A DNA stretch of 64,000 bases, from positions 186,001 to 250,000 of the forward strand of contig NZ_WTVG02000037.1 of NCBI RefSeq assembly GCF_012910705.2, read 5' to 3'. This DNA is from Aromatoleum anaerobium (GTDB lineage: Bacteria > Pseudomonadota > Gammaproteobacteria > Burkholderiales > Rhodocyclaceae). Positions 10,254-33,188 of this stretch are shown piece after piece. The notes beneath the pieces were generated by a model that saw only the letters and a list, made by a program, of their open reading frames with translations, did not search any database and was not told the DNA's origin. How positions within the stretch are numbered: the first letter of the stretch is position 1; every line of letters starts with the position of its first letter. The position numbers were made by a program, and so were the translations under genes.

Positions 10254-10814
10254 ATGGACTGCATCTCCCTGAACACCGTCTCGTCGCTGTCGGGCCTCAG
10301 CAAGCGCACGCTGTGGCGCCGGGTCGCGGACGGGCTGCTGCGGACACAGACCCTGGGTGCCGGCGAACGCACGCTCGTCGCGCTCGACGACGCGCTGGCG
10401 CTCTCCCGGCTACGCCTGGAGCCCGACGACCGCGAACTGATCCGCGAGGCCGATGCCGGCATCGCGGAAGCGCAGTGCGATCTCGCGCTGCTGTTCCTCG
10501 CGCAGAACCTGCCCGAAGAGGCCGTCCGCTGGCTCGAGCCCGCAGCCCAGCAGAATTGCCCCGAGGCCATGCACTGGCTGGGCCGCTGCCACATCGCCGG
10601 GACCGGCGCGCCAGCCGACGAAAAGGCGGGGATGGAGTGGATCGCAAGAGCCGCCAGCCGCGGCCACGCCACGGCCCCCCGGATGATCCAGTACCACGAA
10701 ACCCGACCGCTCCCCCCCCGCGACCCCGCCGCCCTCGAAGCGGCCCTCGACGCAATCGATCGGGAAGTCGTCCTGCGTGCGCTGAATGAGACGGCGCATC
10801 CCGCTCACAGATAA
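10254..10814 (+). CDS. Sel1/TPR-repeat protein with MerR-like N-terminus
   Basis: 186 residues. Residues 1-60 (MDCISLNTVSSLSGLSKRTL then WRRVADGLL and LVALDDALAL) resemble a helix-turn-helix of MerR/excisionase type. Residues 70-150 contain two Sel1/TPR-like helical repeats (AQCDLALLFLAQNLPEEAVR and AMHWLGRCHIAGTGAPADEK). No membrane segment. It is divergent from pilA across the TGTGCCA cluster, so it may regulate pilin expression, but that is inference from position only. The ATG at 10254 is the first start that keeps the HTH. The upstream part of the open frame overlaps the intergenic repeats. Confidence 0.7.
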   Translation: MDCISLNTVSSLSGLSKRTLWRRVADGLLRTQTLGAGERTLVALDDALALSRLRLEPDDRELIREADAGIAEAQCDLALLFLAQNLPEEAVRWLEPAAQQNCPEAMHWLGRCHIAGTGAPADEKAGMEWIARAASRGHATAPRMIQYHETRPLPPRDPAALEAALDAIDREVVLRALNETAHPAHR

Positions 10815-11016
10815 GGGGAAAGGGGGTCGCGAAGTAATCTGCGCGACGTGTCAAAAGCGGCGCAAAACAGTGTCAATACGCGCGCTGCGTTACAGTGAAG
10901 GCGCAGGGCAGGGGGAGCACAGCGGCCGGAGCGTCGGCGTCGCTTCGGCGCGGCGGGACGCGCGAGATGATCGATCGCGGCGGATTTTCCGCGGCGATCC
11001 TCAGGGAGGTGTGTCG

Positions 11017-12525
11017 ATGCGCGTGAAACGGGTATGGCGAAATGCGCTGGCTGCGGTGCTGCTGGTCCTGTGCGGCGCGGCCGTGGCCGGCACGACCGAG
11101 TCCTTCACGTTCCGCGCGCAGGACTATTCCGGCTCGCGCGACCGGCAGTACAAGGTCTATGTCCCGGACGGCCTGAGCGGGCCGGCGCCGCTGGTCATGG
11201 CGCTGCACGGCTGCCAGCAGACCGAGGAAGACGTGCTGCGCGACTGGGGCCTGACCGCCGCGGCCGAACGCTATGGCTTCATCCTCGTCGCGCCGCGCAT
11301 CACCAGCTACGACGGCCTGCGCAACACCAACTGCTGGGGGTTCTGGTTCGACGCGCACCAGCACGAAGGGCGCGGCGAGCCTGAAGACCTGCATCGCATC
11401 GCGCGCGAAGTCGAGGGCAACTTCTCGATCGACCCGGCGCGGCGCTACATCACCGGCCTGTCGTCAGGCGGGGCGATGACGGTGGTCGCGGCGGTCGCGC
11501 ACAACGAGTACTGGGCAGCGGCCGCGAGCGTGGCCGGCATCCCGTATGGCGAGGATTCGGCGTCGGTGTCGCTGTCGGGCCAGTGCCCGGGGCGGGCGAC
11601 GTTCCATCCGGTTGGCCGCGTCGCCGCCGACATGCAGGCCGAAGTCGATGACCCTTACCCGATCCCGCTGCTGGTGGTGCAGAACAACGCCGACTGCACG
11701 GTCGTCCAGCCCGCCGGCCGCAACCTGCGCGACGCCCAGCTGACGGTGTTCGGCTCGCCCGGACACGATACGCCGGCGACGGCGATGGCGCGGCAGATGC
11801 CGTGCACCCCGGTGTTCGGCGACCAAGACTACGGCTGCCGGCATTCCGTCTTCACCACGGACGGAGCCACCGCCAGCCGCTCGGTCGTCGAGACGGTGTT
11901 CTACGACGGCCCGCAGGCGACACCGAACCCGTCCGACACCGACCATGGCCACTACTGGATCGGCGGCGAACAGGGGCGGGACGGCAAGTGGTCGATCCGG
12001 CGCGGGCCGAGTTTCCCGGACATCGCGTGGAATTTCTTCGAGCGCCATCCGCGCGCGGCCGCCGCCGAGCCCGGCGGCCCGCGCATCACGATCGCCGGGG
12101 CGAACCCGCTACGGCTGGAAGAGGGGCAGGCGTTCGTCGATCCGGGCGCGACGGCCACCGACCCCGAGGACGGCGCGCTCACGGTCAGCGCCGATTGCAG
12201 CAGCGTCGACCCTGCCCGGCCGGGCCGCTACGCGTGCACCTACAGCGCAACCGACAGCGCCGGCAACACGGCGTCGGCGAGCCGCACGGTCGAAGTCCTC
12301 GCGCGCGGCGGTTCCGGCATGAGCTGCGCGCAGGCCACGGCCTCGCCGGGCACCCACGTGGTCGCTGGCCGCGCGAGCACGAGCGGCTGGTTCTTCGCCC
12401 GCGCGCTGACCACCGGCGACCGGCAGGACATCGGCTTCAGCTGGGATTTCTGGTCGCGTGTCACGCTGTACGAAGGCGAGCCGGGCCGCTGGTACGCCCA
12501 CCCGCCGCGGGGCTGCGAGGGCTAG
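11017..12525 (+). CDS. Secreted PHB-depolymerase-like esterase with Ig-like C-terminal domain
   Basis: 502 residues. A signal peptide (about 1-25: basic start, ALAAVLLVLCGAAVAG) precedes an alpha/beta-hydrolase of the PHB depolymerase/feruloyl esterase family. Landmarks are VYVPDGL, MALHGCQQT (oxyanion region), nucleophile box GLSSGGAM, the conserved NADCTV region and the DHGHYW histidine box. Residues about 345-430 form a DUF5011-like immunoglobulin fold (FVDPGATATDPEDG). The last 75 residues hold two cysteines and no known domain. Probably extracellular hydrolysis of polyhydroxyalkanoate or a similar polyester. The start at 11017 has AGGGAGG 7 bases upstream. Confidence 0.9.
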   Translation: MRVKRVWRNALAAVLLVLCGAAVAGTTESFTFRAQDYSGSRDRQYKVYVPDGLSGPAPLVMALHGCQQTEEDVLRDWGLTAAAERYGFILVAPRITSYDGLRNTNCWGFWFDAHQHEGRGEPEDLHRIAREVEGNFSIDPARRYITGLSSGGAMTVVAAVAHNEYWAAAASVAGIPYGEDSASVSLSGQCPGRATFHPVGRVAADMQAEVDDPYPIPLLVVQNNADCTVVQPAGRNLRDAQLTVFGSPGHDTPATAMARQMPCTPVFGDQDYGCRHSVFTTDGATASRSVVETVFYDGPQATPNPSDTDHGHYWIGGEQGRDGKWSIRRGPSFPDIAWNFFERHPRAAAAEPGGPRITIAGANPLRLEEGQAFVDPGATATDPEDGALTVSADCSSVDPARPGRYACTYSATDSAGNTASASRTVEVLARGGSGMSCAQATASPGTHVVAGRASTSGWFFARALTTGDRQDIGFSWDFWSRVTLYEGEPGRWYAHPPRGCEG

Positions 12526-15968: not shown

Positions 15969-17600
15969 ATGTGGCGAACTCATGAAGTCTTCAACCAGGT
16001 ACCGGTGCTGAGCGACTGCAATCTGTTCGACTCCGACATTGCGCTGCGCGAGGCGCTCGTGCGCGAAGGTGCGGCGTGGCACACGGAGGCGCTGCGCGGG
16101 CAGGGCGAGGTGCTGGGCAGCGCCGACACGCAGCGCCTCGCGGAACTCGCCGATCGTCACGTGCCGGAGCTCGTCGCTTACGACCGCTGCGGCCGGCGCG
16201 TCGATGACGTCGATTTCCACCCCGCGTGGTCGCGCCTGCTCGCGATGCTGTATGCCGACGGCGTGCACAGTTCGGCGTGGTTCGAGCCGCGTCCCGGCGC
16301 GCACGTCGCGCGGGCCGCATCGTTCTTCCTGCACGGGCAGGCGGAAGCGGGGTCGCTGTGCCCGGTGACGATGACTTTCGCGTCGATCCCGGTGCTGCGC
16401 CGGGAGCCGGCGCTGTTCGGCGCGCTGGGTGACAAGTTCCGCTCGCGCGACTACGACGGGCGGGACGTGCCGCTCGCGGGCAAACGCTCGGTGACGATCG
16501 GCATGGGCATGACCGAGAAGCAGGGCGGCTCCGACCTGCGCGCGAACACCACGCGGGCGCGCCTGCTCGGCGCCGGCGGCCGGGACTATGCGCTGGTCGG
16601 GCACAAATGGTTTTTCTCGGTGCCGACCTGCGACGCGCATCTGGTGCTGGCGCAGGCCAGCGCGGGGCCGTCGTGCTTCTTCGTGCCGCGCTGGCTGCCG
16701 GATGACAGCCGCAATGCGGTGCGCATCCGCCGTCTCAAGGACAAGCTCGGCAACCGCTCGAACGCGTCGGCCGAGGTCGAGTTCGAGGACGCCGTCGGCA
16801 CGCTGGTCGGCGACGAGGGGCGCGGCATCGCGACAATCATGGAGATGGCGGCGCAGACTCGGCTCGACTGCGTGCTCGGCAGCGCCGCGCTGATGCGCCG
16901 CGCGCTCGTCGAAGCGATCCACCACGCGCGGCACCGCTCCGCGTTCGGCAATGTGCTCGTCGCGCAGCCGCTGATGCGCAACGTGCTGGCCGAGCTCGCG
17001 CTCGAAAGCGAAGCCGCGACGATGCTGGCGATGCGCCTGGCGAAGGCGGCCGAGTCGGACGACGACCCGCTGGAGCGCGCGTGGCGGCGCATCGTCACGC
17101 CGGCGGCGAAGTTCTGGATCTGCAAGCGCGCGATCCCGTTCACCGCCGAATGCATGGAAGTGTGGGGCGGCAACGGCTACGTCGAGGATGGGCCGATGGC
17201 ACGTCTGTACCGCGAGGCGCCGGTGAACTCGATCTGGGAAGGTTCCGGCAACGTGATGTGCCTCGACGTGCTGCGTGCCGTCGCGCGCGAGCCGGACGGC
17301 ATCGAGGCGCTGCTGCGGGAATTGTCGGAGGGCCTCGCCGGCGACGCGGTGCTCGTGCAGGCGCTCGGCGACCTGGCGAACGCGCTGCGCGCACCGGCCG
17401 AAGCCGAATGGCACGCGCGCCGCGTCGCGATGCAGCTGGTCCTGCTGGTGCAGGCGGGATTGCTGCTGCGGCATGCGCCGGGGAATGTCGCGGCGGCGTT
17501 CATCGCCAGCCGCTTCAACCGCCCGGCCGGACAGGTCGCGGGCCTGCTCGCGACGCCCGACGCGGCAGCAGCGCTGATCGAGCGGGCGTGGCCCGGCTGA
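15969..17600 (+). CDS. aidB: AidB-like acyl-CoA dehydrogenase
   Basis: 543 residues, the AidB length rather than the 380 of catabolic enzymes. Landmarks are VFNQVPVLSDCNLFDSD (AidB N-terminal segment), GMTEKQGGSDLRANTT (FAD/substrate loop), FFSVPTCDAHLVLAQ, EVWGGNGYVEDGPMARLYRE and APVNSIWEGSGNVMCLDVLR, where the W-E-G-S-G-N glutamate is the usual base. E. coli AidB binds DNA and protects against alkylation, though isovaleryl-CoA activity is also reported. The start at 15969 has GGGAGG 6 bases upstream. It is convergent with the next gene: the stop codons meet as TGATCA with no gap. Confidence 0.92.
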   Translation: MWRTHEVFNQVPVLSDCNLFDSDIALREALVREGAAWHTEALRGQGEVLGSADTQRLAELADRHVPELVAYDRCGRRVDDVDFHPAWSRLLAMLYADGVHSSAWFEPRPGAHVARAASFFLHGQAEAGSLCPVTMTFASIPVLRREPALFGALGDKFRSRDYDGRDVPLAGKRSVTIGMGMTEKQGGSDLRANTTRARLLGAGGRDYALVGHKWFFSVPTCDAHLVLAQASAGPSCFFVPRWLPDDSRNAVRIRRLKDKLGNRSNASAEVEFEDAVGTLVGDEGRGIATIMEMAAQTRLDCVLGSAALMRRALVEAIHHARHRSAFGNVLVAQPLMRNVLAELALESEAATMLAMRLAKAAESDDDPLERAWRRIVTPAAKFWICKRAIPFTAECMEVWGGNGYVEDGPMARLYREAPVNSIWEGSGNVMCLDVLRAVAREPDGIEALLRELSEGLAGDAVLVQALGDLANALRAPAEAEWHARRVAMQLVLLVQAGLLLRHAPGNVAAAFIASRFNRPAGQVAGLLATPDAAAALIERAWPG

Positions 17601-18377
17601 TCATCCCGGCAGGACGGCCGCGCGCCGGCGCGCGCCGCTCGCGCCAGTGAGCGCCCGCAGGCAGTCGGGCCCGGCGTCGACAAAGGCGCGATGGACCTGC
17701 ACTCCGGCTGCACCGGCGGCGCGGGCCGCACCGACATCGACGGCGGTGCGGATGCCGCCCACCGCGACGAGCGCCGGGCCGTCTGCGATGCGATGGGCCA
17801 GCGCGGCGAAGCGCGCCAGCCGCGAGAGCTGCCCGCCCGCTGCGGGGAGGACCACGGTCAGCGCGTCGAAGCCGGCCTGCGCGGCCGCTGCCGCGACGTC
17901 CGGCAGCGGCTCGCCTTCCGTGCCCAGCGGAAACTTGAGCGCCAGCGGGATCCGGCGCGGCAGGCGGTCGCGTTCGGCCGCGATCGACTTCATGGCTGCG
18001 GCCAGGAGCGGCAGATGCTCGCGGGCGAGCAGCGGCCGGCAGGCTTGCGCGCTGAGATTGAAGCTCACGTAGTCCGCAATTCGCCACGCGCCCAGGAGGC
18101 CGGCGAGCCACTGCGCCGGCAAGTCCGCCGGCGCCGCGCCGGGCGACAGGCCGATGCCGATGCCGATCGCGCTGCCGTCGGGATGGCGCGGCGGCAGGAT
18201 GGCCAGGCGCGCAGTCAGCGCCGCGAGGCTGAAAGGCGCTTGCGGGTGCGCGGCGACGGTGCCGAATTCGACGCTGCCGAAGCCCAGGCTCAGCAGTTCC
18301 TCCGCCCGCGTGCCGTCCTTGTCGATGCCGCCGGCCAGGCCCGGCCGGTCGTGCCAGCGCAGGCGGATGCGGCTCAT
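17601..18377 (-). CDS. Dihydroorotate-dehydrogenase-like flavoprotein in the pqq operon
   Basis: 258 residues. A TIM-barrel of the DHOD family: AGGIDKDGTRAEELLSLGFG then VEFGTVAAHPQ (the N-terminal FMN loop), YVSFNLSAQA, PLALKFPLGT (lysine strand) and ALVAVGGIRTAVDVGAARAA followed by GAAGVQVHRAF (phosphate-binding GG and S/A-x-x-x-Q motifs). It is shorter than PyrD (about 335) and lacks a clear PyrD catalytic Ser/Cys loop, so a different substrate is likely. It starts 4 bases inside the serC-like gene and is last in the pqq-linked operon. Confidence 0.75.
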   Translation of the reverse strand: MSRIRLRWHDRPGLAGGIDKDGTRAEELLSLGFGSVEFGTVAAHPQAPFSLAALTARLAILPPRHPDGSAIGIGIGLSPGAAPADLPAQWLAGLLGAWRIADYVSFNLSAQACRPLLAREHLPLLAAAMKSIAAERDRLPRRIPLALKFPLGTEGEPLPDVAAAAAQAGFDALTVVLPAAGGQLSRLARFAALAHRIADGPALVAVGGIRTAVDVGAARAAGAAGVQVHRAFVDAGPDCLRALTGASGARRRAAVLPG

Positions 18378-19465
18378 CCGTGACGCCTCGCGAAGCCGGC
18401 CATGAAGTCCGCCAGCGCTGCGGCGCCGGCTTCCGGCATCGCGTTGTAGAGGCTCGCGCGCAGCCCGCCGACCTGGCGGTGGCCGCGCAGGTGGGTGAGC
18501 CCGTGCGCCTCGGCTTCGGCGAGGAAGAGGTCGGTGAGCCGGTCGTCGGCGAGGTGGAAGCGGACGTTCGAGCCGGAGCGGTGTCCGGTCGCGACCGGCG
18601 CGACGTAGAAGCCTTCGCTGCCGTCGATGGCCGCATAGAGTCTTTCGGCCTTGCGCCGGTTCGCGGCGGCCATCGCCGCCAGGCCGCCGGCGTCGGCGAT
18701 CCAGTCGAAAACGAGGCCGGCGACGTGGATCGCCCACGTCGGGGGCGTGTTGACGCAGCTGTCGTGCTCGGCCTGGAGCCGGTAACAGTGCGGCGCGGGC
18801 ACGCGGGGCGCGGGGCGCCCGAGCAGGTCTTCGCGAATGATGACGACGGTGAGGCCGGCGGGGCCGATGTTCTTTTGCGCGCTGGCGTAGAGGACGCCGA
18901 ATCTCGACACCTCGACCGGGCCGGTGAGGAAACACGACGTGCAATCGGCGACCAGCGGCACGTCGCCGGTGTCCGGCAAACCGGGGTAGGCGATGCCGTC
19001 GACGGTCTCGTTCGGCGTGATGTGGCAGTACGCGCAGCCGGCCGGCAGCGCCCAGCGGCCGAGCGCCGGCGCGGCCAGCGGCACCGGGCCGGCGTGGCGG
19101 GCGGCCAGCACCACGTCGGCGTAGCGAGCGCCTTCGGCCATCGCGCGCCGCGACCAGTAGCCCGAGTCGGCGTAGGCCGCGTGACGCGCGTCGCCGAGGA
19201 GGTTCATCGGCACCAGCGAGAACTGGTGCAGCGCGCCGCCGGCGAGAAACAGGATGCGGTAGTTCGGCGGCAGCGCGAGCAGTTCGGCCAGGCGTTCGCG
19301 GGCGTGGGCGAGCGTGGCGCGAAACGCGTCGTCGGTGAAAGGCCGTTCGAGCGCCGAGGCGGCGTCCGGCCCGCGCGCAAAAAGTTCGTCGCGCGCCCGC
19401 TCGAGCACCGCGTCGGGCAGGCGGGCGGGGCCGGCGGCGAAGTTGAACGCAGGCGACGGTGACAT
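18374..19465 (-). CDS. serC: SerC-family phosphoserine aminotransferase homologue in the pqq operon
   Basis: 363 residues, fold-type I PLP enzyme. FNFAAGPARLPDAVLERARD is the SerC opening. The PLP-binding lysine is in VLYASAQKNIGPAGLTVVII and the ring-stacking region is YSDS-like AYADSGYWSRRAM. CHITPNETVDG is highly typical, as is HLRGHRQVGGLRASLYNAMP near the end. Canonical role: 3-phosphohydroxypyruvate plus glutamate to phosphoserine. Its tight placement among pqq genes (4 bases after the PuuD-like gene) suggests a dedicated role or a paralogue; whether another serC exists cannot be seen here. Confidence 0.9.
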   Translation of the reverse strand: MSPSPAFNFAAGPARLPDAVLERARDELFARGPDAASALERPFTDDAFRATLAHARERLAELLALPPNYRILFLAGGALHQFSLVPMNLLGDARHAAYADSGYWSRRAMAEGARYADVVLAARHAGPVPLAAPALGRWALPAGCAYCHITPNETVDGIAYPGLPDTGDVPLVADCTSCFLTGPVEVSRFGVLYASAQKNIGPAGLTVVIIREDLLGRPAPRVPAPHCYRLQAEHDSCVNTPPTWAIHVAGLVFDWIADAGGLAAMAAANRRKAERLYAAIDGSEGFYVAPVATGHRSGSNVRFHLADDRLTDLFLAEAEAHGLTHLRGHRQVGGLRASLYNAMPEAGAAALADFMAGFARRHG

Positions 19466-19469
19466 CGCG

Positions 19470-19973
19470 TCAGCCGAGCAGGAAGCCGCCGTGGCTCCCC
19501 GCCGCCATGAAGAACAGCAGCGGAATCGACAGCATCGTGTTGGTGCGCGACGACAGGTGCGTGATGCGCGAGCAGCGCACGCGCTCCTCGATGCCGGCCG
19601 GCACCAGGCCCAGCACTTTCTTCTGGTGCGGCCACAGCACGAACCAGACGTTGAGCATCATCAGCGTGCCGATGTACATGCCGACACCGATCGGCGCGAG
19701 GCTGCCCTGCAGGCCGGCGGCGCCCGCGAGCCAGCCGTGCTGCCACAGCATCAGCACGCCGGCGCACCAGGTGACGACCGACGCCCAGCGGAAAAAGCCG
19801 TGTTCGCGATTGAGCAGCGCCTGGAAGCGCGGACTGCGGTCGTCGATGAGGTCGGCGGCCGTCAGCGGGCGCCAGGTCGGGCGCTGCACGACGCTGGAAT
19901 AGTTGTGGCCGACCCAGATGATGCCGGCGAGAAAATGCGCCCAGCGCAGCGTGAGCTCGAGCGTCGCGTCCAT
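19470..19973 (-). CDS. PuuD-like (urate hydroxylase N-terminal domain) membrane protein
   Basis: 167 residues with four to five hydrophobic segments: LRWAHFLAGIIWVGHNYSSV (8-27), FFRWASVVTWCAGVLMLW (about 60-78), GVGMYIGTLMMLNVWFVLWP (about 94-113) and MLSIPLLFFMAAGSHGGFLL (about 146-165). The R-W-x-H-x-x-x-G-I-x-W-x-G-H motif matches the membrane part of PuuD/UrcA-type proteins, where histidines likely bind haem. The C-terminal cytochrome c domain of full PuuD is absent. It could be an electron-transfer partner for a PQQ enzyme (inference). Confidence 0.75.
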   Translation of the reverse strand: MDATLELTLRWAHFLAGIIWVGHNYSSVVQRPTWRPLTAADLIDDRSPRFQALLNREHGFFRWASVVTWCAGVLMLWQHGWLAGAAGLQGSLAPIGVGMYIGTLMMLNVWFVLWPHQKKVLGLVPAGIEERVRCSRITHLSSRTNTMLSIPLLFFMAAGSHGGFLLG

Positions 19974-19981
19974 GCCGCGCC

Positions 19982-20077
19982 TCAGCCCGCGAGGACGCGC
20001 ACGAGCGCGGCCAGGACCGCGGTGAGCGCGATGCCGAGCGCGATCGTGCCGGTCGCGGTGTCGTAGGGATGGCGCAT
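19982..20077 (-). CDS. 31-residue single-helix membrane micro-protein
   Basis: An ATG at 20077, one base after the pqqE stop, opens MRHPYDTATGTIALGIALTA followed by VLAALVRVLAG. The last two-thirds form one transmembrane helix. GGAGACCTGAG lies upstream as a usable ribosome site within the pqqE 3' end. It fills the otherwise empty space between pqqE and the PuuD-like gene exactly. It has no family I recognise. It may be a small subunit of the membrane protein that follows. Confidence 0.6.
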   Translation of the reverse strand: MRHPYDTATGTIALGIALTAVLAALVRVLAG

Positions 20078-20078
20078 C

Positions 20079-21224
20079 TCAGGTCTCCAGGAACGCGGTG
20101 GACATCGCGCCGGCGGCGCGCCTCACCAGCGGTTTGCGAAAACGCAGCGGCCTGGCGACGGCGTCGACCGCGTCCTGCACGACCTGATGCCGCGGCGAGC
20201 GGCTGCACGCCGGGTCGGTGTTGCCGGCGTCGCCGGTCAGCAGGAAAGCCTGGCAGCGGCAGCCGCCGAAATCCTTCTCCTTTTCGGCGCACGAACCGCA
20301 GGGTTCGGGCAGCCAGTCGAGGCCGCGGTATTTGCGGAACAGCGGCGACTCGTGCCAGATCCACGCCAGCGGCCGGTCCCGCACCGACTCGAATTCCAGC
20401 CCGGGAATGACGCGGGCTTCCTGGCAGGGCATCGCCACGCCGTCGGGAGCGATCGTCAGGTGGATCGCGCCCCAGCCATTCATGCAGGCTTTCGGGCGGC
20501 CCTCGTAGTAGTCCGGGATGACGAAATAGATCGTCATCTTCTTGCCGAGCCTGTCGCGCCACTGCTGCACGACTTTTTCGGCGTCGCGCACCTGCTCGAG
20601 CGTCGGCATCAGCTCGTCGCGGTTCATCAGCGCCCAGTTGTAGTACTGGATGTTTGCGAATTCCAGGTACTCGATGCCGAGTCCGGCCGCCCATTCGATC
20701 ATTTCGCCGGTCATGCCGATGTTCTGGCGGAAGACCGGCATGTTGAGCACCATCGGAAACCCGTGGGCCTTGATGAGGCGCCCCGCTTCGAGCTTGCGGG
20801 CGTGGGCGCGGGCGCCGACCAGCGCGTCGGTGACGTCGGCGCGGGTCGCCTGCAAGGACAGCTGGATCTGCTTCAGGCCGGCGTTCTTCAGCGCGATCAG
20901 GCGCTCCTCGCCGAGGCCGATGCCGGAGGTGATGAGGTTGGTGTAGAAACCCAGGCTGTCGGCGTACGCGACCAGCTCCTCGAGGTCCGGGCGCTGCAGC
21001 GGCTCGCCGCCGGTGAAGCCGAGCTGCAGCGCGCCCAGCTCGCGCGATTCGCGCAGCACTTTTTTCCACTCCTCGGTGCTCAGCTCCTTCGCGGCGTAGT
21101 CCTCGAAATCGAGCGGGTTGTTGCACCAGCTGCATTTAAGCGGGCAGCGGTAGGTGAGCTCCAGCGACAGCCACAGCGGCTTGCCCTGTCCGTCCAGACT
21201 GAGACCGCCGGTTTCCTTGGGCAT
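20079..21224 (-). CDS. pqqE: PqqE, radical SAM enzyme of PQQ biosynthesis
   Basis: 381 residues. The radical SAM cluster is CPLKCSWC (C-x3-C-x2-C) at about residue 31-38. SPASM-type cysteines appear later: CMNGWGAIHL, PCQEA, and PCGSCAEKEKDFGGCRCQAF. PqqE forms the Glu-Tyr carbon bond in PqqA, bound via PqqD. The start at 21224 has AGGAG 8 bases upstream. It sits after a peptidase gene with a 137-base gap that contains the 14-mer at 21255-21268. Confidence 0.97.
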   Translation of the reverse strand: MPKETGGLSLDGQGKPLWLSLELTYRCPLKCSWCNNPLDFEDYAAKELSTEEWKKVLRESRELGALQLGFTGGEPLQRPDLEELVAYADSLGFYTNLITSGIGLGEERLIALKNAGLKQIQLSLQATRADVTDALVGARAHARKLEAGRLIKAHGFPMVLNMPVFRQNIGMTGEMIEWAAGLGIEYLEFANIQYYNWALMNRDELMPTLEQVRDAEKVVQQWRDRLGKKMTIYFVIPDYYEGRPKACMNGWGAIHLTIAPDGVAMPCQEARVIPGLEFESVRDRPLAWIWHESPLFRKYRGLDWLPEPCGSCAEKEKDFGGCRCQAFLLTGDAGNTDPACSRSPRHQVVQDAVDAVARPLRFRKPLVRRAAGAMSTAFLET

Positions 21225-21361: not shown

Positions 21362-22348
21362 TCAGGCGGCGCGGCGCGCGATGCGGTCGAGCGCGGCGAT
21401 GCAGGCGGCGGCGATGGCCGGCTGCAGCGCGCCATGGCCGGCCCCGTCGACCACGACCCGCTCGGCTTGCGGCCACGCCCGATGCAGCCGTTCCGCGGCC
21501 TGCGGCGGGCACACCGGGTCGGCGCTGCCCTGCACGAGGGCGCCCGGGATGTGCCGCAGACGTTCGCAGCCTGCCAGCAGGCGATCCGCGTCGCCAAAGC
21601 AGCCCCGCGACAGGTAATGGGCCTGGATGCGCGTCTTGGCGAGCTGCCGCGGGTCGAGGTCGGCGACGAGCGGCGCCTCGCCCATCAGCGCGCGTTCGTA
21701 ATCGAGCCAGTGCCGGGCGGCTGCAACGCGAGTCGGCGCATCGCGCGAGAGCAGGCGGCGGGTATAGGCGTCGAGCAGATTGTCGCGCTCGCCGTGCGGC
21801 ACGGCCCGGGCGAAGCGCTGCCACGCGTGCGGTGCGGGAGTGGCGACGCCCTGCGCGTAGCGGCGCAGCTCCGCGGCCGAGCCGAGGAAGATGCCGCGCA
21901 GCACGAGGCCCGACACTGCGTCGGGATGCGCCTGCGCATAGGCGAGTGCCAGCAGGCTGCCCCACGAGCCGCCGAACACCAGCCAGCGCTCGATGCCCAG
22001 CGCGTGGCGGATGCGTTCGATATCGGCGACGAGGTGGGCGGTGGTGTTGGCCCGCAGGCTGCCCGCGGGCGTGCTGCGGCCGCAGCCGCGCTGGTCGAAA
22101 AGCACCGCGCGAAAGCGGCCGGGGTCGAACAGGCGGCGCTGGGCCGGCGTGCAGCCGCTACCGGGGCCGCCGTGCAGGAAGACCACCGGCAGGCCGCCGG
22201 GACGTCCGATTTCCTCGACGTGCAGCACGTGGCCGTGACCGACCGCCAGGCGGTGCATGGCGAATGGCGGGGTTGCGGCAAAGAGCGGCGAGCTCTCGGG
22301 CAGACGCGGGAAGCCAGGCGGGCCGCCGCGCGGATCGCCCGGCGACAT
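21362..22348 (-). CDS. Proline-iminopeptidase-like alpha/beta hydrolase in the pqq operon
   Basis: 328 residues. VVFLHGGPGSGCTPAQRRLF (oxyanion loop HGGPG), FDQRGCGRSTP, the nucleophile elbow GGSWGSLLA, VQGSADPVCPP (acid region) and DGAGHGAL (histidine) complete the S33 peptidase/proline iminopeptidase signature. It starts with a one-base overlap to the pqqD stop (TGATG). It could help process the PqqA-derived intermediate, since known pqq operons often include a peptidase (usually PqqF/PqqG or others). The specific role is inference. Confidence 0.87.
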   Translation of the reverse strand: MSPGDPRGGPPGFPRLPESSPLFAATPPFAMHRLAVGHGHVLHVEEIGRPGGLPVVFLHGGPGSGCTPAQRRLFDPGRFRAVLFDQRGCGRSTPAGSLRANTTAHLVADIERIRHALGIERWLVFGGSWGSLLALAYAQAHPDAVSGLVLRGIFLGSAAELRRYAQGVATPAPHAWQRFARAVPHGERDNLLDAYTRRLLSRDAPTRVAAARHWLDYERALMGEAPLVADLDPRQLAKTRIQAHYLSRGCFGDADRLLAGCERLRHIPGALVQGSADPVCPPQAAERLHRAWPQAERVVVDGAGHGALQPAIAAACIAALDRIARRAA

Positions 22349-22632
22349 CAGGTGCGCAGCCAGCCTTTGTCGCAGGCCAGGTCGACGAACGCCCGGACGC
22401 TGGCGGCGATTTCTTCGCCATGGCCGGGAAACGCGGCCTGCAGGTCGGCGACGATCGCGGCGACCGTGCGCTCGCCGTCGCAGCGCTTGAGGATTTCGCC
22501 GGCCGAAAGGTTGAGTTTGATGAGGCCTTCCGGGTAGAGCAGAATGTAGGCGTCCTGGCTCGCTTCCCAGCGGAACATGAAATGCGGCGACAGCCGCGGG
22601 CGGGCGTCGGCGGAAAGGGCGATGGTTTCCAT
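22348..22632 (-). CDS. pqqD: PqqD, peptide chaperone of PQQ biosynthesis
   Basis: 94 residues. RPRLSPHFMFRWEASQDAYI followed by LLYPEGLIKLNLSAGEIL is the PqqD (RiPP recognition element) core; LCDG-type RCDGERTVAAIVADL follows. PqqD presents PqqA to PqqE. It is encoded 61 bases after pqqA and coupled to the peptidase gene. Confidence 0.95.
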   Translation of the reverse strand: METIALSADARPRLSPHFMFRWEASQDAYILLYPEGLIKLNLSAGEILKRCDGERTVAAIVADLQAAFPGHGEEIAASVRAFVDLACDKGWLRT

Positions 22633-22693: not shown

Positions 22694-22768
22694 TCAGCGG
22701 ACGTACACGTATGCGGTGACTTCGAATCCGAGTCGAATCTCGCAGTAGGCAGGGGTTTCCCAAGTCAT
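22694..22768 (-). CDS. pqqA: PqqA, 24-residue precursor peptide of PQQ
   Basis: The ATG at 22768 opens a 24-codon frame: MTWETPAYCEIRLGFEVTAY then VYVR. This is the conserved PqqA with the E-V-T-A-Y motif, whose Glu16 and Tyr20 become the PQQ skeleton. GGAGA lies 5 bases upstream. It is unusual in lying after pqqC rather than first in the operon. The 106-base gap before it holds the 14-mer and an imperfect TTCCGG/CCGGAA stem, a possible extra promoter that would let the peptide be over-expressed relative to the enzymes. Confidence 0.97.
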   Translation of the reverse strand: MTWETPAYCEIRLGFEVTAYVYVR

Positions 22769-22874: not shown

Positions 22875-23642
22875 TCATGATGTGGCGGAAACTTCGGCCA
22901 TCGGCGTGTATTTTCCCCAGCCGGCGATCTGCACGTCGCAGTGCGCGAGCATCATCGCGTCGAGCATCGACCACAGCAGGTCGAGCTTGAAGCGCAGGAT
23001 CTCGAGTGCCCGCTCCTGCAGCGCCCGGGTGTTGAAGTGGCCGAGGGTGATGCGCAGCCCGTTGACGACGTCGCGCGGCGCTTCGGTGAGGCGGCGGCGG
23101 AAGTAGGCGTAGCCCTCGGCTTCGATCCACGGATAGTGTTCCGGCCAGTGTTCGAGGCGCGACTGGTGGATGGTCGGGGCGAAGAGCTCGGTGAGCGACG
23201 AAGCCGCCGCTTCCTGCCACGTGCTGCGGCGGGCGAAATTGATGTAGGCATCGACCGCGAAGCGCACGCCGGGCAGCACCAGGCGCTCGGAGACGATCTC
23301 GTCGCGCGCCAGGCCGACCGCTTCGCCGAGCCGGATCCACGCTTCGATGCCGCCGCCCTCGTTGCCCTCGCCGCCGTGGCCGTCGTGGTCGAGGATGCGC
23401 TGCACCCAGTGGCGGCGCACGTCGCGGTCGGGGCAGTTCGACAGGATCGCGGCATCCTTGATCGGGATGCTGACCTGGTAGTAGTAGCGGTTCGCGACCC
23501 ACGCCCGGATCTGCTCGCGGGTGCACTGGCCGCGGTGCATCATCACCTGGAACGGGTGGTGGATGTGGTAACACCCGCCCAAGGCGCGCAACCGGGCTTC
23601 GAACGCCTCCGCGCTCCAGGCTTCCGTTTCGTCGATTCTCAT
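22875..23642 (-). CDS. pqqC: PqqC, pyrroloquinoline-quinone synthase
   Basis: 255 residues. [20 protein letters not shown] then [12 protein letters not shown] is the PqqC/TenA-like helical core. [17 protein letters not shown] and the [19 protein letters not shown] segment are strongly conserved, including active-site His, Arg and Tyr. It catalyses the final ring closure and eight-electron oxidation to PQQ without a metal. The ATG overlaps the pqqB stop by 4 bases. Confidence 0.97.
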
Positions 23643-24574
23643 TGCAAGTCTCCAGCGGGGCCGAAATCGAGCAGCATGCCGTCGGCGGCGACTTCGATGC
23701 CGTGCCGCGCCAGTTCGGCACGCTCGCGCGAGTCCTCGTCGAGGATCGGGTTGGTGTTGTTGATGTGGATCAGGATCTTGCGCGGCCGCGGGTAGCCGGA
23801 CAGCAACTCGATCATGCCGCCGGCACCCGCTTGCGGCAGGTGGCCGATTTCGCGCGCCGTGCGCGTCGAGATGCCGAGCCGGATCATCTCGTCGTCGCTC
23901 CAGAACGTGCCGTCGAGCAGCACGCAGTCGGAACCGGCGAGGTAAGGCTGCAGGTGCGGCGCCATCGCGCCGAAGCCCGGCGCGTAGAAGACCTTGCGGG
24001 CGCTGGCCGCGTCCTCGATGAGCACGCCGATGTTGTCGCCCGGATGCGGGTCGTCGCGGTGCGGCGAATACGGCGGCGCCTTGCTCGCGAGCGGCACCGG
24101 CGTGAAACGCAGGCCGGCCACGCCGGGCACCGTGAAAGGCGTCGGCGGCGCCACCTGCAGCGGGTGCCGGACGACTGTGCAGAAGTGGGAAAGCACATTG
24201 AACACCGGGTTGCCGGTGGTGAGGTCCTCATGCACCTGCGCGGTACACCACACCGGCAGCGGCTGGCCTTCGCGCAGCATGAAAAGTCCGGTGGTGTGGT
24301 CCACCTGGGCGTCGATGAGCACCACCCCGGCGATGCCGCTGTCACGCAATGCGCGGGCGGGCTGCAGGCAGGGGTTGGCGCGGATCTGCGCGAGCAGGTC
24401 GGGGGAGGCGTTGAACAGCACCCAGTCGTCGCCGTTGCTGCTCACCGCGATCGAAGACTGGGTGCGTGGCCGGGCACGGACGGTGCCGTGGCGCACGCCG
24501 TGGCAATTGCGGCAGTTGCAATTCCACTGGGGAAAGCCTCCGCCGGCGGACGAGCCGAGAACGAGGATCTTCAT
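23639..24574 (-). CDS. pqqB: PqqB, metallo-beta-lactamase-fold PQQ biosynthesis protein
   Basis: 311 residues. [20 protein letters not shown] then CRNCHGVR is the PqqB N-terminus with its zinc-binding Cys pair. [19 protein letters not shown] replaces the usual HxHxDH motif, as is normal in Pqq[11 protein letters not shown] and [12 protein letters not shown] follow. It is thought to hydroxylate the Glu-Tyr intermediate. It is the first gene of the pqq operon, 108 bases after the REC-GGDEF gene on the same strand. Confidence 0.97.
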
Positions 24575-29066: not shown

Positions 29067-31004
29067 TCAGAGGTCCAGCGAGCCCTCGACGCCGCGGCAG
29101 TAGCCGTTGAGCTCCACGTAGGCCTTGCCGGGCACCGCCCCCGTCACGCTGGAGGCGCCTTCCCAGTACTCCGGCCCCGCCCAGTAGCCGTGGCGGGCGC
29201 GCAGTTCCTGGTCCTTGACCATGGGCTGGACCTCGAAGCTCTCGCCTTCCACGGTAACACGCCAGCCCGAGGGATAGGTGCAGCCGGTGTGCGGGCTGGT
29301 CCAGTGGCCCAGGATCTCGACCTGGAACTGGTGCCCCGACAGCGTCCGGGTGTTGCCGCCGGCGTCGGTGACGGAGCCGGTGCGCTCGCCCGCGTTGGAT
29401 TTGCCGAGGATGTCGTAGAGCATGATCTGGCGGTTGTCGGCGAGGTCGATGGCGAACCACTGCCAGCCCTTGACGATGGCCTGGTAGAGCTCGCCGTACT
29501 GGCGGTCGAACCAGCTCGCGCCGCTCACCTTGTAGGTCTTGCCGCCGACCGTGATGGTGCCGCGCGTCTCCATGCGCACGCGCGAGTAGTAGTAGGTGTA
29601 GCCGCCGTAGCGGTAGGGGTGGGCGTCGCCCCCGTAGTGCAGCACCGGCGCCTTGGTGGGTGCGAGCTCCAGGTCGAGGACGTAGCCGCCCACCTCGCTG
29701 CGCAGGCGGTCGCCGTTGGCGTCGCCGGTCGCGCGGATGATGTCGCCGGGCCCGGCGGTGAGCGCGAAGCGGTCCGTGGTGCGCGCGGGCAGGTGGAACT
29801 TGAGATGCTCGGCGAAGTGGAACTTGTCGCCGTCCACGTCGGTGATGGCGACCTGGGTGAGCTGGTCGCGCATCACCAGGAAGCTGTCGAAGGTGAAGAA
29901 CACCACCTCGAAGCCGAAGCGGCGGCCTTCCTCCGACTCCAGGTGGCCGGTCCAGTACCACCACTGCACCTTCTCGTCGGGCAGGAAGACGTCGTCCCCG
30001 GGCAGCTCGATCGCGCCGATCAGGCCCCGGTGCGGCGCGAAGGCCGCGAGCCCGAGCGCCGGCAGCAGCCCGGCGAGGAAGGCCCACACGAGGTAGCGCC
30101 GGCGGGTGTGTGCCGCGCCGGTCCCGCCGGCCCGCGCCAGGCCGAGCACCTGCCGGCTGGGCCACAGGTAGCCCGCCATGCCGAGCAGGGCGAAGGCGGG
30201 TATCACGAGCGCGAGCTCCGGCTGCTTCGCGTGCAGCGGGGTGAGGAACAGGATCGCCAGCGAGACGGCGAAGACGAAGGCCGGCGGGGCGAGGCGCCAG
30301 CCGTCCACCGGGACGTCGCCGCGCATGCGCCCGAGCCTGGCCAGCAGCAGCGTCACCCAGGTGCCGAAGAAGAGCGCGACGATGGTGGCCTCGTCGACGA
30401 AGTGGCGCCCCACTAGCCACAGATAGCCGAGCATCACCGCGACGAAGATCAGGAAGGCCGGAACGATCGCGAGGAAGGGCGCGGCGGCGGTCCACCAGGC
30501 CTTGCCGTGGCCGACGCGGCCCGCGAGCTCCAGCATCGCGGTGTAGCTCGCGCCGATGACGAACCAGCCGACGTAGTTGTCCCACGGGATGCCGAACCAG
30601 GCGCCGGGCTCGGCCCACACCCACACGCCGAGGGAGACGAAGGCCGGATCGCAGACGAGGTCGATCACGGTCGCCAGCAGCCCCGCCGCGATCGGCACCA
30701 GCGTCGCCGGCAGGGCCAGCGCGCGCGCCGTGCGCAGGGCCGCGTAGATGATCGTGCCCCAGCTCAGGATGATCGACAGGGGCACCGGGCCCGGCAGCCA
30801 CACGAGGGATTCGGTGTAGTAGTAGGGCGGCGGCGACTTGACGACCTGCGAGTACTCGACGATGAAGCCGAACAGGATCGCCGCCGGGATGAGGTAGAAG
30901 AGCGGGCGCTCGTGCCGCCACGTGTGGACGAGCAGCACCGCGGTGAGCAGGTAGTTCAGGATCTGGATGATGATGAAGGCGGTCGCGGGATCGGCGGGCT
31001 GCAT
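29067..31004 (-). CDS. Membrane CruF-like domain fused to CrtC/AttH-like lipocalin domain
   Basis: 645 residues. Residues 1 to about 230 are a polytopic DUF422-type carotenoid-hydratase-like domain (CruF-like): FGFIVEYSQVVKSPPPYYY, VIDLVCDPAFVSLGVW and WGIP-like WFGIPWDNYVGWF. More helices run to about 320. From about 335 a soluble CrtC/AttH-like domain follows: VQWWYWTGHLESEEGRRFGF, YYSRVRMETRGTITV, GASWFDRQYGEL and W-x-x-F-x-IDLADNRQIMLY. Both halves belong to carotenoid 1,2-hydratase-related folds. No crt genes are nearby, so activity on another hydrophobic substrate is possible. The start has GAGGAATTC upstream. Confidence 0.72.
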   Translation of the reverse strand: MQPADPATAFIIIQILNYLLTAVLLVHTWRHERPLFYLIPAAILFGFIVEYSQVVKSPPPYYYTESLVWLPGPVPLSIILSWGTIIYAALRTARALALPATLVPIAAGLLATVIDLVCDPAFVSLGVWVWAEPGAWFGIPWDNYVGWFVIGASYTAMLELAGRVGHGKAWWTAAAPFLAIVPAFLIFVAVMLGYLWLVGRHFVDEATIVALFFGTWVTLLLARLGRMRGDVPVDGWRLAPPAFVFAVSLAILFLTPLHAKQPELALVIPAFALLGMAGYLWPSRQVLGLARAGGTGAAHTRRRYLVWAFLAGLLPALGLAAFAPHRGLIGAIELPGDDVFLPDEKVQWWYWTGHLESEEGRRFGFEVVFFTFDSFLVMRDQLTQVAITDVDGDKFHFAEHLKFHLPARTTDRFALTAGPGDIIRATGDANGDRLRSEVGGYVLDLELAPTKAPVLHYGGDAHPYRYGGYTYYYSRVRMETRGTITVGGKTYKVSGASWFDRQYGELYQAIVKGWQWFAIDLADNRQIMLYDILGKSNAGERTGSVTDAGGNTRTLSGHQFQVEILGHWTSPHTGCTYPSGWRVTVEGESFEVQPMVKDQELRARHGYWAGPEYWEGASSVTGAVPGKAYVELNGYCRGVEGSLDL

Positions 31005-31052
31005 CGGAATTCCTCGTTAGTTTTTTTGTGTTCCGGGGGCGGGGCCGCTGCG

Positions 31053-33188
31053 TCACATGCGGTACGAGAGCTGCACCCAGCCGGCGCGGCCCGGCTGGGG
31101 GTAGTCGCCGGCGTAGGAGGGAATCGGCTGATCGGCCACGTCCCGGGTGAGGAATGCGGGATAGCGCACGCGCTCGTCCAGCAGGTTGCTCACGCCCAGC
31201 CGCAGCGTGAGGCCGCGCACGCCGACGTTGCCGAAGCTCGTGGTGGCGTCGACGGTCTCGTAGCCCGACAGCCTGTGGCGCGGGTCGCCGGCCTCGCGCG
31301 CGCGCTCGCCGACGTGGCGCAGCCACAGGCTGTAGGTCTGCGTCGCCGTCGGCTGGAAGACCAGTGCCAGGTTGGCGAGGCGGTCGGCCGCCCCGGCCAC
31401 GGCGTCACCGGTGTCCGAGTGCTCGGCATCGGAGAGGGTAATGTTGGCCTTGAGCCGGAGCCGGCTCGTCAGGCGCTGGTCGAGCTCCAGCTCGACGCCA
31501 TCGACCTCGACCCCCGGGGCGTTGCGGTACTGGAGGATGCGGCTGCCGACGATGAGGTCCTTCAGCCGCGAGTGGAAGAGGGTCGCGCGGCCTCCGGTGG
31601 CCGGACCTTTGTAGATGTACGCGAACTCCGTGGTCTTGATCGTCTCGGGAGAAAGCTCCGTCCCCGCCTCCGCCATCGCCATCTCGTAGAAGGTCGGCGG
31701 ACGGAACGCTTCCGCGTACTGCGCCTTCAGGATGTGCCGGCGGTCGAGCCGCCAGACCGCCGCGAGGCGCGGCGACAGCTTGTCGCCCACGTCGTCGTAG
31801 TCGTCGTAGCGCAAGCCGGCGGTGACGGTGACGTCGTCGCTCAGCCGGTACTCGTCCTGCAGCGTCAGGCTGAGGATCCGCCGCGTGCTGCCGTCGTCGG
31901 CCCACTGTGCGCCTTCGTCCGCCGTGGAGCGCCGCGGGGCGGGCAGGGGGGTCCGCGTGAGCGGGTCGAGGTTGCTTTCCACCCAGGCGTCGCCGGCGGC
32001 GATGTGGGTGGCGCCGAGGCTCAGCAGCCAGTTGTGGTCCCGCCAGCCGCTCCAGTGCATGTCGTACTCGGCGGACAGGCGCTGTTCGTCGTAATAGCCC
32101 TTTGCCCACCAGCCTTCCGGCAGGACGGCCGGGAGGGGCGTGAACCAGGTGAGGCCCGCCGGCAACAGGCGGAAGTCGAAGCGGTTCTCGTAGTACTGCC
32201 AGCCCAGGCGCAGCTCGGTGGCGAGCGTCTCCGACGGGCGCCAGCCGCCCTTGCCGTTCACCATGAAGTAGCGGTTGCGGTAGGCGATGCCGTCGTCCGG
32301 CTGGGACAGCACGTTGACGGTGCCGAAGTGGTCGCCGTTGCCGTCCTCGACGTAGCTCGCGGACAGGGAATACTCGTCGCGGTAGAGGTCCACCAGCAGC
32401 GAGCGCTGTTCCATCTCGTCGTTCACCGGACCGGGCGCGTTCGACAGCGTGCCGTTCAGCAGCGGGTTCACCGGAATGCCGGCCGGGTCCACCGGGATGC
32501 CGGAGAGCGCATCCTGCCCGGAACCAACCCTCGCCCCTCGGCTGTGCCAGCCGCCGAAGCTCATGCTGCCGCCGCTCCGGCCGTCCTCCGAGCGCCAGTG
32601 ACGGAAGCCCCCGGCGCCGTAGGTGTCGAAGCGGCCGGCGCGCGCGAACACGCCGTCGGCGTCCTTGCGGGTGATCACGTTGATCACCCCCGCGTAGGCG
32701 AACTCGCCGTGGATGGCCGAGCCCGGGCCGCGGATCACCTCGATCTGGCCGACCTGCTCGATCGGCATGTTGAGCACCGGATTGGCGTTGGCCGACAGGG
32801 CCGAGTTCATCGACTGGCTGTTGAGCAGGATCTTCATGTTGCCCGAGGCGAAGGTGCCGCCCACGCCGCGCACCAGCGTCTGGCGCCCGCCGATCTGGTC
32901 GGTCGAGGGCTCGATGCCGGGCACGAGGCGCAGCGCCTCCCACACCGTGCGCGCGCCCAGCGCTTCCAGCTCGTCGCCGAGCAGGACGGTGACGAGGCCC
33001 GGCACGTAGTCGGCGTTCATCTTCGTCCGGGTGGCGATCTCGGTCTGCTGGTCGAGGACCGCCAGGAGGTCGCGCAACTCGGCGGACTCTTCGCCCCCGG
33101 CCGGCGCATCCTGGTCCGGCGCGGCCTGGGCGCAGGCGGTGAACGACAACAGGCCCAGCAGGCAATGCCGGAGTACGGCTTTCTTCAT
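31053..33188 (-). CDS. TonB-dependent outer-membrane receptor
   Basis: 711 residues. A signal peptide (LLGLLSFTACAQAAP) is followed by a short segment LRDLLAVLDQQTEIATRTKM and the plug domain: VPGLVTVLLGDELEALGA, IEVIRGPGSAIHGEFAYAGV then INVITRK. The beta-barrel ends with an aromatic, VQLSYRM. The plug type (DLL..L..QT.IAT) is the one often found beside YfiR and c-di-GMP genes. The ligand is unknown; the neighbours suggest a hydrophobic molecule rather than a siderophore. It is the first gene of the five-gene operon. Confidence 0.93.
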   Translation of the reverse strand: MKKAVLRHCLLGLLSFTACAQAAPDQDAPAGGEESAELRDLLAVLDQQTEIATRTKMNADYVPGLVTVLLGDELEALGARTVWEALRLVPGIEPSTDQIGGRQTLVRGVGGTFASGNMKILLNSQSMNSALSANANPVLNMPIEQVGQIEVIRGPGSAIHGEFAYAGVINVITRKDADGVFARAGRFDTYGAGGFRHWRSEDGRSGGSMSFGGWHSRGARVGSGQDALSGIPVDPAGIPVNPLLNGTLSNAPGPVNDEMEQRSLLVDLYRDEYSLSASYVEDGNGDHFGTVNVLSQPDDGIAYRNRYFMVNGKGGWRPSETLATELRLGWQYYENRFDFRLLPAGLTWFTPLPAVLPEGWWAKGYYDEQRLSAEYDMHWSGWRDHNWLLSLGATHIAAGDAWVESNLDPLTRTPLPAPRRSTADEGAQWADDGSTRRILSLTLQDEYRLSDDVTVTAGLRYDDYDDVGDKLSPRLAAVWRLDRRHILKAQYAEAFRPPTFYEMAMAEAGTELSPETIKTTEFAYIYKGPATGGRATLFHSRLKDLIVGSRILQYRNAPGVEVDGVELELDQRLTSRLRLKANITLSDAEHSDTGDAVAGAADRLANLALVFQPTATQTYSLWLRHVGERAREAGDPRHRLSGYETVDATTSFGNVGVRGLTLRLGVSNLLDERVRYPAFLTRDVADQPIPSYAGDYPQPGRAGWVQLSYRM

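Follow-up and report, generated by a model that had tools for sequence, protein, structure and literature searches.

A pqqE-linked gene cassette as a candidate oxygen-independent branch of pyrroloquinoline quinone biosynthesis in Aromatoleum anaerobium and other proteobacteria

We analyzed a pyrroloquinoline quinone (PQQ) biosynthesis operon in a 64,000-nucleotide stretch of the Aromatoleum anaerobium genome (contig NZ_WTVG02000037.1, positions 186,001 to 250,000; hereinafter the window), in which pqqE is followed by a cassette of four genes that we named PEP31, PUUD, SERC, and DHODL for the purposes of this analysis (Table 1). The operon runs in the order pqqB, pqqC, pqqA, pqqD, a peptidase-like gene, pqqE, PEP31, PUUD, SERC, and DHODL. 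The tight packing reported in the initial annotation was reproduced on the minus strand together with its coordinates, the spacing 3′ of pqqE being 1 base to PEP31, 8 to PUUD, 4 to SERC, and −4 to DHODL. The last value reflects the ATG of DHODL at 18377, which overlaps the SERC stop by 4 bases; the open reading frame (ORF) lister starts the gene at an in-frame upstream GTG, 18389. A search of the window with Rfam returned no match at the gathering threshold.

Table 1. Genes of the pqq operon and its cassette, in window coordinates.
Feature	Position	Strand	Basis
DHODL, class-II dihydroorotate dehydrogenase (DHOD)-like, 258 residues	17601..18377	-	Pfam DHO_dh over gathering score, alignments
SERC, SerC-like pyridoxal phosphate (PLP) aminotransferase, 363 residues	18374..19465	-	Pfam Aminotran_5 over gathering score, alignments
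PUUD, short four-helix DUF989/Urate_ox_N protein, 167 residues	19470..19973	-	Pfam Urate_ox_N over gathering score
PEP31, 31-residue single-helix membrane peptide	19982..20077	-	recurrence in relatives, codon changes
pqqE, cassette-clade radical S-adenosylmethionine enzyme	20079..21224	-	TIGR02109 482 bits vs cut-off 381; trees
prolyl-aminopeptidase-like hydrolase, candidate PqqA peptidase	21362..22348	-	family match, recurrent neighbour
pqqD	22348..22632	-	family match
pqqA, 24 residues, cassette-type (GFEVTAYVYVR)	22694..22768	-	sole pqqA-pattern match in genome
pqqC	22875..23642	-	family match
pqqB	23639..24574	-	family match

DHODL was searched in a sample of 150 related genomes (that of the window, G000, and 149 others) and in a collection of genome contigs, and the operon proteins were run by tblastn on the fetched loci. 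The order pqqE-(PEP31)-PUUD-SERC-DHODL was recovered at 32 distinct loci across alpha-, beta-, and gammaproteobacteria, comprising the window, 13 contigs (L033-L045), 16 further genomes, and two plasmids, after removal of L080 as a duplicate of L040. Two of these loci end at contig edges (pqqE is missing from L045, and L044 breaks off within DHODL), and in L088 tblastn missed DHODL, its ORF being present at 10746-11609. Among the 150 relatives, 40 encode a PUUD relative at E≤1e-5; in the 14 genomes where it is at least 58% identical it lies directly behind pqqE without exception, and ten fetched examples of the 26 that are at most 48% identical had no pqq gene in the 10-12 kilobases (kb) read around each. 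A class-level sample of 369 genomes yielded cassette-type PUUD (at least 218 bits, the next score being 157) in four genomes besides that of the window, all four with pqqA-pqqD-pqqE-PEP31-PUUD-SERC-DHODL, and in a phylum-level sample of 398 the hits at E≤1e-45 were confined to the window genome and one of the same four, a threshold that the alphaproteobacterial form may not reach. Both plasmid records matching PUUD, a mobilizable plasmid of Acidibrevibacterium fodinaquatile and pHY1 of Methylovirgula sp. HY1, carry pqqA-pqqD-pqqE-PUUD-SERC-DHODL; the DHODL of the former is annotated 'hypothetical' and was identified by alignment. These counts (14/14, 4/4, and 2/2 behind pqqE) uphold the linkage to pqq genes suggested in the initial annotation, and we did not find the four genes keeping company without pqq genes. 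Since the same order recurs in distant genomes, the arrangement is not due to chance, and the cassette is real and pqq-linked. On pHY1 (L168, 3980-6829), the pqq cluster is immediately preceded by cbpA/cbpB, annotated as a modified-peptide pair, and by a gene for a Crp/Fnr regulator.

PUUD matches PF06181 only in part and has no CXXCH motif, and its AlphaFold2 model consists of four long helices (predicted local distance difference test score 87.3). Its mean column identity is 75% over 18 rows. Relative to six ordinary short DUF989 proteins, it has gained His23 and an inserted REHG motif, both of which are retained in the plasmid copies. The description of this protein as 'haem-type' in the initial annotation found no support, as PUUD has invariant histidines but no counterpart of the cytochrome c domain of PuuD. 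The PEP31 ORF behaves as a gene: comparison with two genomes of the same genus revealed 4 and 5 synonymous codon changes and no nonsynonymous ones. Of the 31 distinct loci that include the gap between pqqE and PUUD, 30 have a PEP31-like open frame there (25 including the window and excluding L080, the four from the class sample, and one plasmid, the last by eye); the Methylovirgula plasmid lacks it, and L045 lacks the gap. The matches are weak in L138, L087, L088, and L082 (E 0.002 to 0.03), and L084 and L088 have no ordinary start codon at the expected place. PEP31 is best read as a detached helix of PUUD. Away from pqq genes, a PEP31-like peptide is also found upstream of six of the ten fetched PUUD relatives (L096-L098, L101, L102, and L104), and visual inspection suggests that a comparable segment is fused to the N-terminus of the short DUF989 protein in L103 and L105; ordinary short DUF989 proteins and a peptide of about 31 residues (MKNPLDSLWGTVISG...), preceding or fused, form a two-part membrane module.

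SERC retains Trp102, Thr153, Asp174, the PLP lysine Lys198, His328, and Arg335, the last of which we take to bind the substrate carboxylate, in all 26 rows (25 distinct) of an alignment that uses the SerC of E. coli (L106) and that of the window genome as references and covers, plasmids aside, the copies other than four from the class sample (L138-L141) and the cut L045. In the same 26 rows, Phe stands in place of His41, and the residue at position 42 is Thr, Ser, or Ala instead of Arg; both plasmid copies likewise lack the His41/Arg42 pair, with Gly or Thr at position 42. Excerpts of a review name His41, Arg42, His327, and Arg328 as phosphate contacts (PMC12011608), the matching of these numbers to E. 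coli SerC being our own. With His41 and Arg42 lost, SERC should not have phosphoserine aminotransferase activity. It is 46% identical to the genome's own SerC and scores over the curated model NF003764 (407.6 vs 253) and under TIGR01364 (363.6 vs 443.6).

DHODL, aligned in 19 rows out of the 32 loci and numbered after E. coli PyrD, keeps Lys217 and Asn172 in every row and Gly297 in 18, with a mean column identity of 38% and a best curated PyrD score of 66.2 bits against a cut-off of 457. The N-terminal membrane helix is absent, the region and loop of Asn111 are deleted, and Asn177, Asn246, and Thr247, which with the other Asn and Thr positions we assume to be the orotate-binding residues of PyrD, are replaced or gapped in 19/19 rows (one plasmid copy has Thr at 247). 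Ser175 is Ala or gapped in all 19 rows and is Ser in one of the two plasmid copies, where the alignment is uncertain. In class-II enzymes, according to excerpts of PMC8520639, this Ser is the catalytic base and the N-terminus is tied to the membrane or quinone. Given the loss of most of the dihydroorotate site and of the membrane helix, DHODL should not have dihydroorotate dehydrogenase activity. The family names by themselves would point to extra housekeeping serC and pyrD genes and a membrane gene that came to lie behind pqqE by accident. We rejected this explanation, to which we attach a negligible probability, because a separate canonical serC lies elsewhere in the window genome and the substrate-binding residues of both enzymes are lost; the order conserved at 32 loci, distant genomes included, also speaks against it.

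The cassette occurs in two architectures. pqqE scored over the cut-off in 44 of the 150 relatives (fragments in G048, G091, and G119 fell below it and were not counted). Six of the 14 cassette-bearing relatives, G000 (the window), G008, G011, G068, G032, and G077, have a single pqqE over the cut-off. The other eight have two, one in a pqq cluster without the cassette and one in a second cluster of pqqADE plus cassette. Seven of these eight second clusters have no pqqBC in the fetched stretch; in the exception, G060, pqqBC lie beside the cassette and the contig of the other cluster holds only pqqA, pqqD, and pqqE (the other cluster was read around in 7/8, G015 being the remaining one). Both plasmid copies are likewise pqqADE plus cassette without pqqBC in the stretch read, and none of the eight canonical clusters read around (L089-L095 and the canonical one in L138) has a cassette of its own. 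In G310 (L138) the two kinds of cluster, canonical pqqABCDE and pqqADE plus cassette, stand back to back, separated by about 2.3 kb in which an aldehyde dehydrogenase gene lies. In the window genome, pqqB, pqqC, pqqE (counted over the cut-off), and pqqA (counted by pattern) each occur once, and pqqB and pqqC score over the cut-off in 18/18 cassette genomes searched (exactly one of each in 17), so that a cassette replacing lost pqqBC was not seen. This retention, the single operon shared with pqqBC in the window, and the membrane and flavin-like components would suit a redox accessory in which PUUD/PEP31 and DHODL move electrons for PqqE, PqqB, or PqqC at low oxygen, improving the normal route rather than replacing it; we consider this rather improbable in view of the seven second clusters without pqqBC, the eight canonical clusters without a cassette, and SERC, which it leaves unexplained.

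A tree of 58 PqqE sequences, of which 30 are cassette-linked and 28 are not (20 from the 44 pqqE-positive relatives, one of them the other copy of G015, and eight from further two-pqqE genomes), separates 27 of the 28 unlinked rows from the 30 cassette rows plus that of G064 with a support of 100/100. Four long end branches were flagged; with three long rows removed and G064 kept, the split was 25 of 26 against 29 plus G064, again at 100/100. PqqA ends in GFEVTAYVYVR in the cassette-type copies read and mostly in GFE[IV]TMY in the others (TLY in G060). A pqqA codon pattern search of 19 genomes returned exactly one match, of the T-A-Y type, in each of the six single-pqqE genomes, although T-L-Y forms escape the pattern and the completeness of G032 is 79%; from this single match, the same T-A-Y PqqA probably feeds both PqqBC and the cassette. 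G064 (L163) has the order pqqE-pqqB-pqqC-pqqA-pqqD with a T-A-Y PqqA, its PqqE falls inside the cassette side of the tree, and no cassette was found in the 19 kb read; it is probably a case of natural cassette loss. Together with the PqqA shared in single-pqqE genomes, it argues for PQQ as the common product.

These observations bear on two further explanations. The cassette might instead make a different quinone or small molecule from cross-linked PqqA, such as a relative of PQQ arising after SERC removes an amino group, with PQQ still coming from PqqBC alone. The distinct types of PqqA and PqqE, an aminotransferase without an obvious place in the PQQ route, and the pqqB and pqqC kept in 18/18 genomes would accord with this; nevertheless, the six genomes with one pqqE and one pqqA by pattern, in which the same peptide should feed PqqBC, and the use of cassette-type PqqA and PqqE in G064 without a cassette at the locus make it unlikely, if credible. 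A catabolic role of the cassette, in which DHODL and PUUD would be oxidoreductases that break down or recycle PQQ or by-products derived from PqqA, draws on the part that PuuD and SerC relatives play in the metabolism of purines and amino acids; synthesis is the better fit to the linkage with pqqE and a single type of PqqA and to the stand-alone plasmid units of pqqADE plus cassette, and we hold degradation to be very improbable.

The prolyl-aminopeptidase-like gene stands beside pqqD or pqqE in the window, L034, L038, L043, L044, L076, L077, L078, L079, and L081, as well as near some canonical clusters (L089, L092, L094, and L095) and in L163. No match to a PqqF/PqqG-type protease was obtained among the window operon proteins scanned, which makes its product a candidate PqqA peptidase that may release the Glu-Tyr unit. 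Outside the operon, an AidB-like acyl-coenzyme A dehydrogenase gene (15969-17600) converges on the cassette end, and a TonB-dependent receptor gene and a CrtC-like carotenoid gene lie further upstream (29067-33188).

On balance, we think it probable that the cassette is the tail of an oxygen-independent, or low-oxygen, branch completing PQQ from the PqqE product. In such a scheme, cassette-type PqqA would be cross-linked by cassette-clade PqqE with PqqD, as in the known chemistry; with oxygen, PqqB and PqqC would complete the cofactor, and without oxygen or at low oxygen the cassette would do so. PUUD and PEP31 would form a membrane oxidase that oxidizes or hydroxylates the ring system derived from Glu-Tyr and passes electrons to the respiratory chain (quinone or cytochrome c), as PuuD is reported to do with urate; DHODL, probably binding flavin mononucleotide, would dehydrogenate a reduced ring intermediate in the stead of PqqC; and SERC may act on the amino group of a non-phosphorylated, carboxylated intermediate. 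Of the PQQ-linked accessory branch with flavin and PLP enzymes envisaged in the initial annotation, a redox/PLP branch stands as the best reading, while its electron-transfer and amino-acid steps are ones that we infer. A stronger form, in which the cassette fully replaces PqqB and PqqC without oxygen, is possible but doubtful: PUUD and PEP31 would add the ring oxygens from water with electrons passing to the respiratory chain, DHODL would perform the ring dehydrogenations, and SERC would handle the amino-acid intermediate.

The oxygen-independent branch is supported by the conservation of the linkage, by a PqqE clade and a PqqA type that go with the cassette, and by the changed active sites, and further by anaerobic neighbours or FNR-type boxes at some cassette copies. 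Genes of anaerobic metabolism lie near the cassette in 5 of 12 second clusters, in a scan of selected ORFs for which no chance rate was computed: UbiU, UbiV, and UbiD about 6 to 13 kb away in G489; NrdD and NrdG2 adjoining pqqA in G281; in G010, narG, narH, and a NarK-like transporter that scores below its family's cut-off; in G044, a hemerythrin and a NarK-like transporter, with narG on the contig; and in G128, NnrS and a member of the NapG/MauM family, again with narG on the contig. In G012, nitrate ATP-binding cassette transporter genes lie downstream. The FNR-type box in its first form, TTGAT-N4-ATCAA, is perfect in 3/12 second clusters against 8/3000 random windows. In the form widened post hoc, TTGAY-N4-RTCAA, it matches at 10/10 positions upstream of pqqA in 5/12 (at −153 to −189), against 0/8 canonical pqqA, 0/8 window-type regions, and 1.2% of random 300-base windows; counting close relatives once leaves 3/10 (binomial p about 2e-4, with grouping by judgement and the widening post hoc). 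Of the two plasmid copies, one carries the box in perfect form and the other at 9/10, the latter with a Crp/Fnr gene immediately before pqqA, and no box of at least 9/10 was found in eight upstream regions of window-type operons.

A number of points weigh against an oxygen-independent branch. Besides the scope of the neighbour scan and the widening of the box, the contrast weakens when boxes of at least 9/10 are admitted (6/12 vs 2/8 canonical, and 3.8% of random windows), and the window has no box of at least 8/10 upstream of pqqB or pqqA. Its cassette shares one operon with the oxygen-dependent pqq genes, and the retention of pqqB and pqqC in 18/18 genomes counts on the same side. The model of PUUD had no match in the PDB at E≤0.001, leaving haem or quinone binding unsupported. 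Both nitrogens of PQQ come from PqqA, which makes the role of an aminotransferase in its synthesis unclear. Methylovirgula, the host of one plasmid copy, is presumably an aerobic methylotroph. The window genome has narG and two nosZ, and among the 44 pqqE-positive genomes nosZ is found in 12/14 with the cassette (three of these, G044, G068, and G077, under the family's cut-off) vs 15/30 without, UbiU in 13/14 vs 16/30, and narG in 9/14 vs 12/30, the last not significant (p=0.12). Within the family of the window, nosZ and UbiU are each present in 12/13 vs 15/17, so that kinship explains the association, and we dropped a link to denitrification or UbiU by genome content.

The initial annotation suggested that the pathway might be undescribed. 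However, Li et al. (2025; PMC12423496) describe pqqAED-puuD-serC-pyrD clusters in Hyphomicrobium denitrificans (Hden_0548-0553), H. nitrativorans, Halomonas sulfidovorans, Stutzerimonas stutzeri, Methylophaga nitratireducenticrescens, and Azoarcus sp. DN11, and suggest, as speculation, an oxygen-independent completion of PQQ. The same paper states that PqqC, and probably PqqB too, requires oxygen, that Klebsiella pneumoniae and Pseudomonas aeruginosa, which have only the canonical genes, are reported not to form PQQ anaerobically, and that PQQ enzymes operate in the absence of air in organisms for which denitrification on methanol has been reported. This was the only paper found when the open-licence literature was searched for pqqE together with puuD; a search on oxygen-independent PQQ formation gave it and two reviews of radical S-adenosylmethionine peptides. 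PEP31, the active-site losses, a merged operon, the PqqE and PqqA types, and plasmids are not mentioned in its section 2.9, and no literature search was aimed at each of these points. The oxygen-independent idea is hence already in print, and what is added here is the merged single-pqqE form, PEP31, the active-site losses, the PqqE and PqqA types, and the plasmids. A linked candidate for the missing oxygen-free route, plasmids included, makes the question testable. If the stronger form, with full replacement of PqqB and PqqC, is right, there would be a new way of building a redox cofactor, also as a plasmid-borne unit, and in the window the oxygen-free route would run from the same peptide as the aerobic one. 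The candidate route would also assign a role to a short membrane protein of the DUF989 family and to the 31-residue peptide that accompanies it. The labels 'serC', 'pyrD', and 'puuD' at cassette loci are misleading.

Of known systems, the clusters of Li et al. are the closest, with pqqA, pqqD, pqqE, and homologues of four-helix puuD, serC, and pyrD, as in the window; theirs, however, are second clusters beside a classical pqqABCDE, whereas the window has one merged operon with a single pqqE. PuuD, which according to excerpts of Doniselli et al. (2015; PMC4562309) oxidizes urate and passes the electrons to cytochrome c, matches in part the same Pfam domain as PUUD and offers a model for the oxidation of an N-heterocycle. 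It differs in having an eight-helix DUF989 domain and a cytochrome c domain, whereas PUUD has four helices and no such domain; those excerpts equate short four-helix DUF989 proteins with helices I, II, V, and VI and note another gene context for them. PUUD is further distinguished by its pqqE linkage and, relative to the six ordinary relatives, by its invariant His23 and REHG. DHODL belongs to the DHO_dh family with class-II PyrD and shares Lys217, Asn172, and Gly297, but it is set apart by the missing membrane helix and Asn111 loop and the unconserved catalytic Ser175. SERC similarly has the PLP lysine, Arg335, and His328 of SerC and departs from it in the replaced His41 and Arg42 of the phosphate site. 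As for the pairing of routes, UbiUV, NrdDG, and HemN are oxygen-independent routes paired with oxygen-dependent ones. Although their enzymes are unrelated to the cassette, whose role here is a proposed one, the likeness is that facultative anaerobes keep both routes, and two cassette copies lie near ubiUV and nrdDG.

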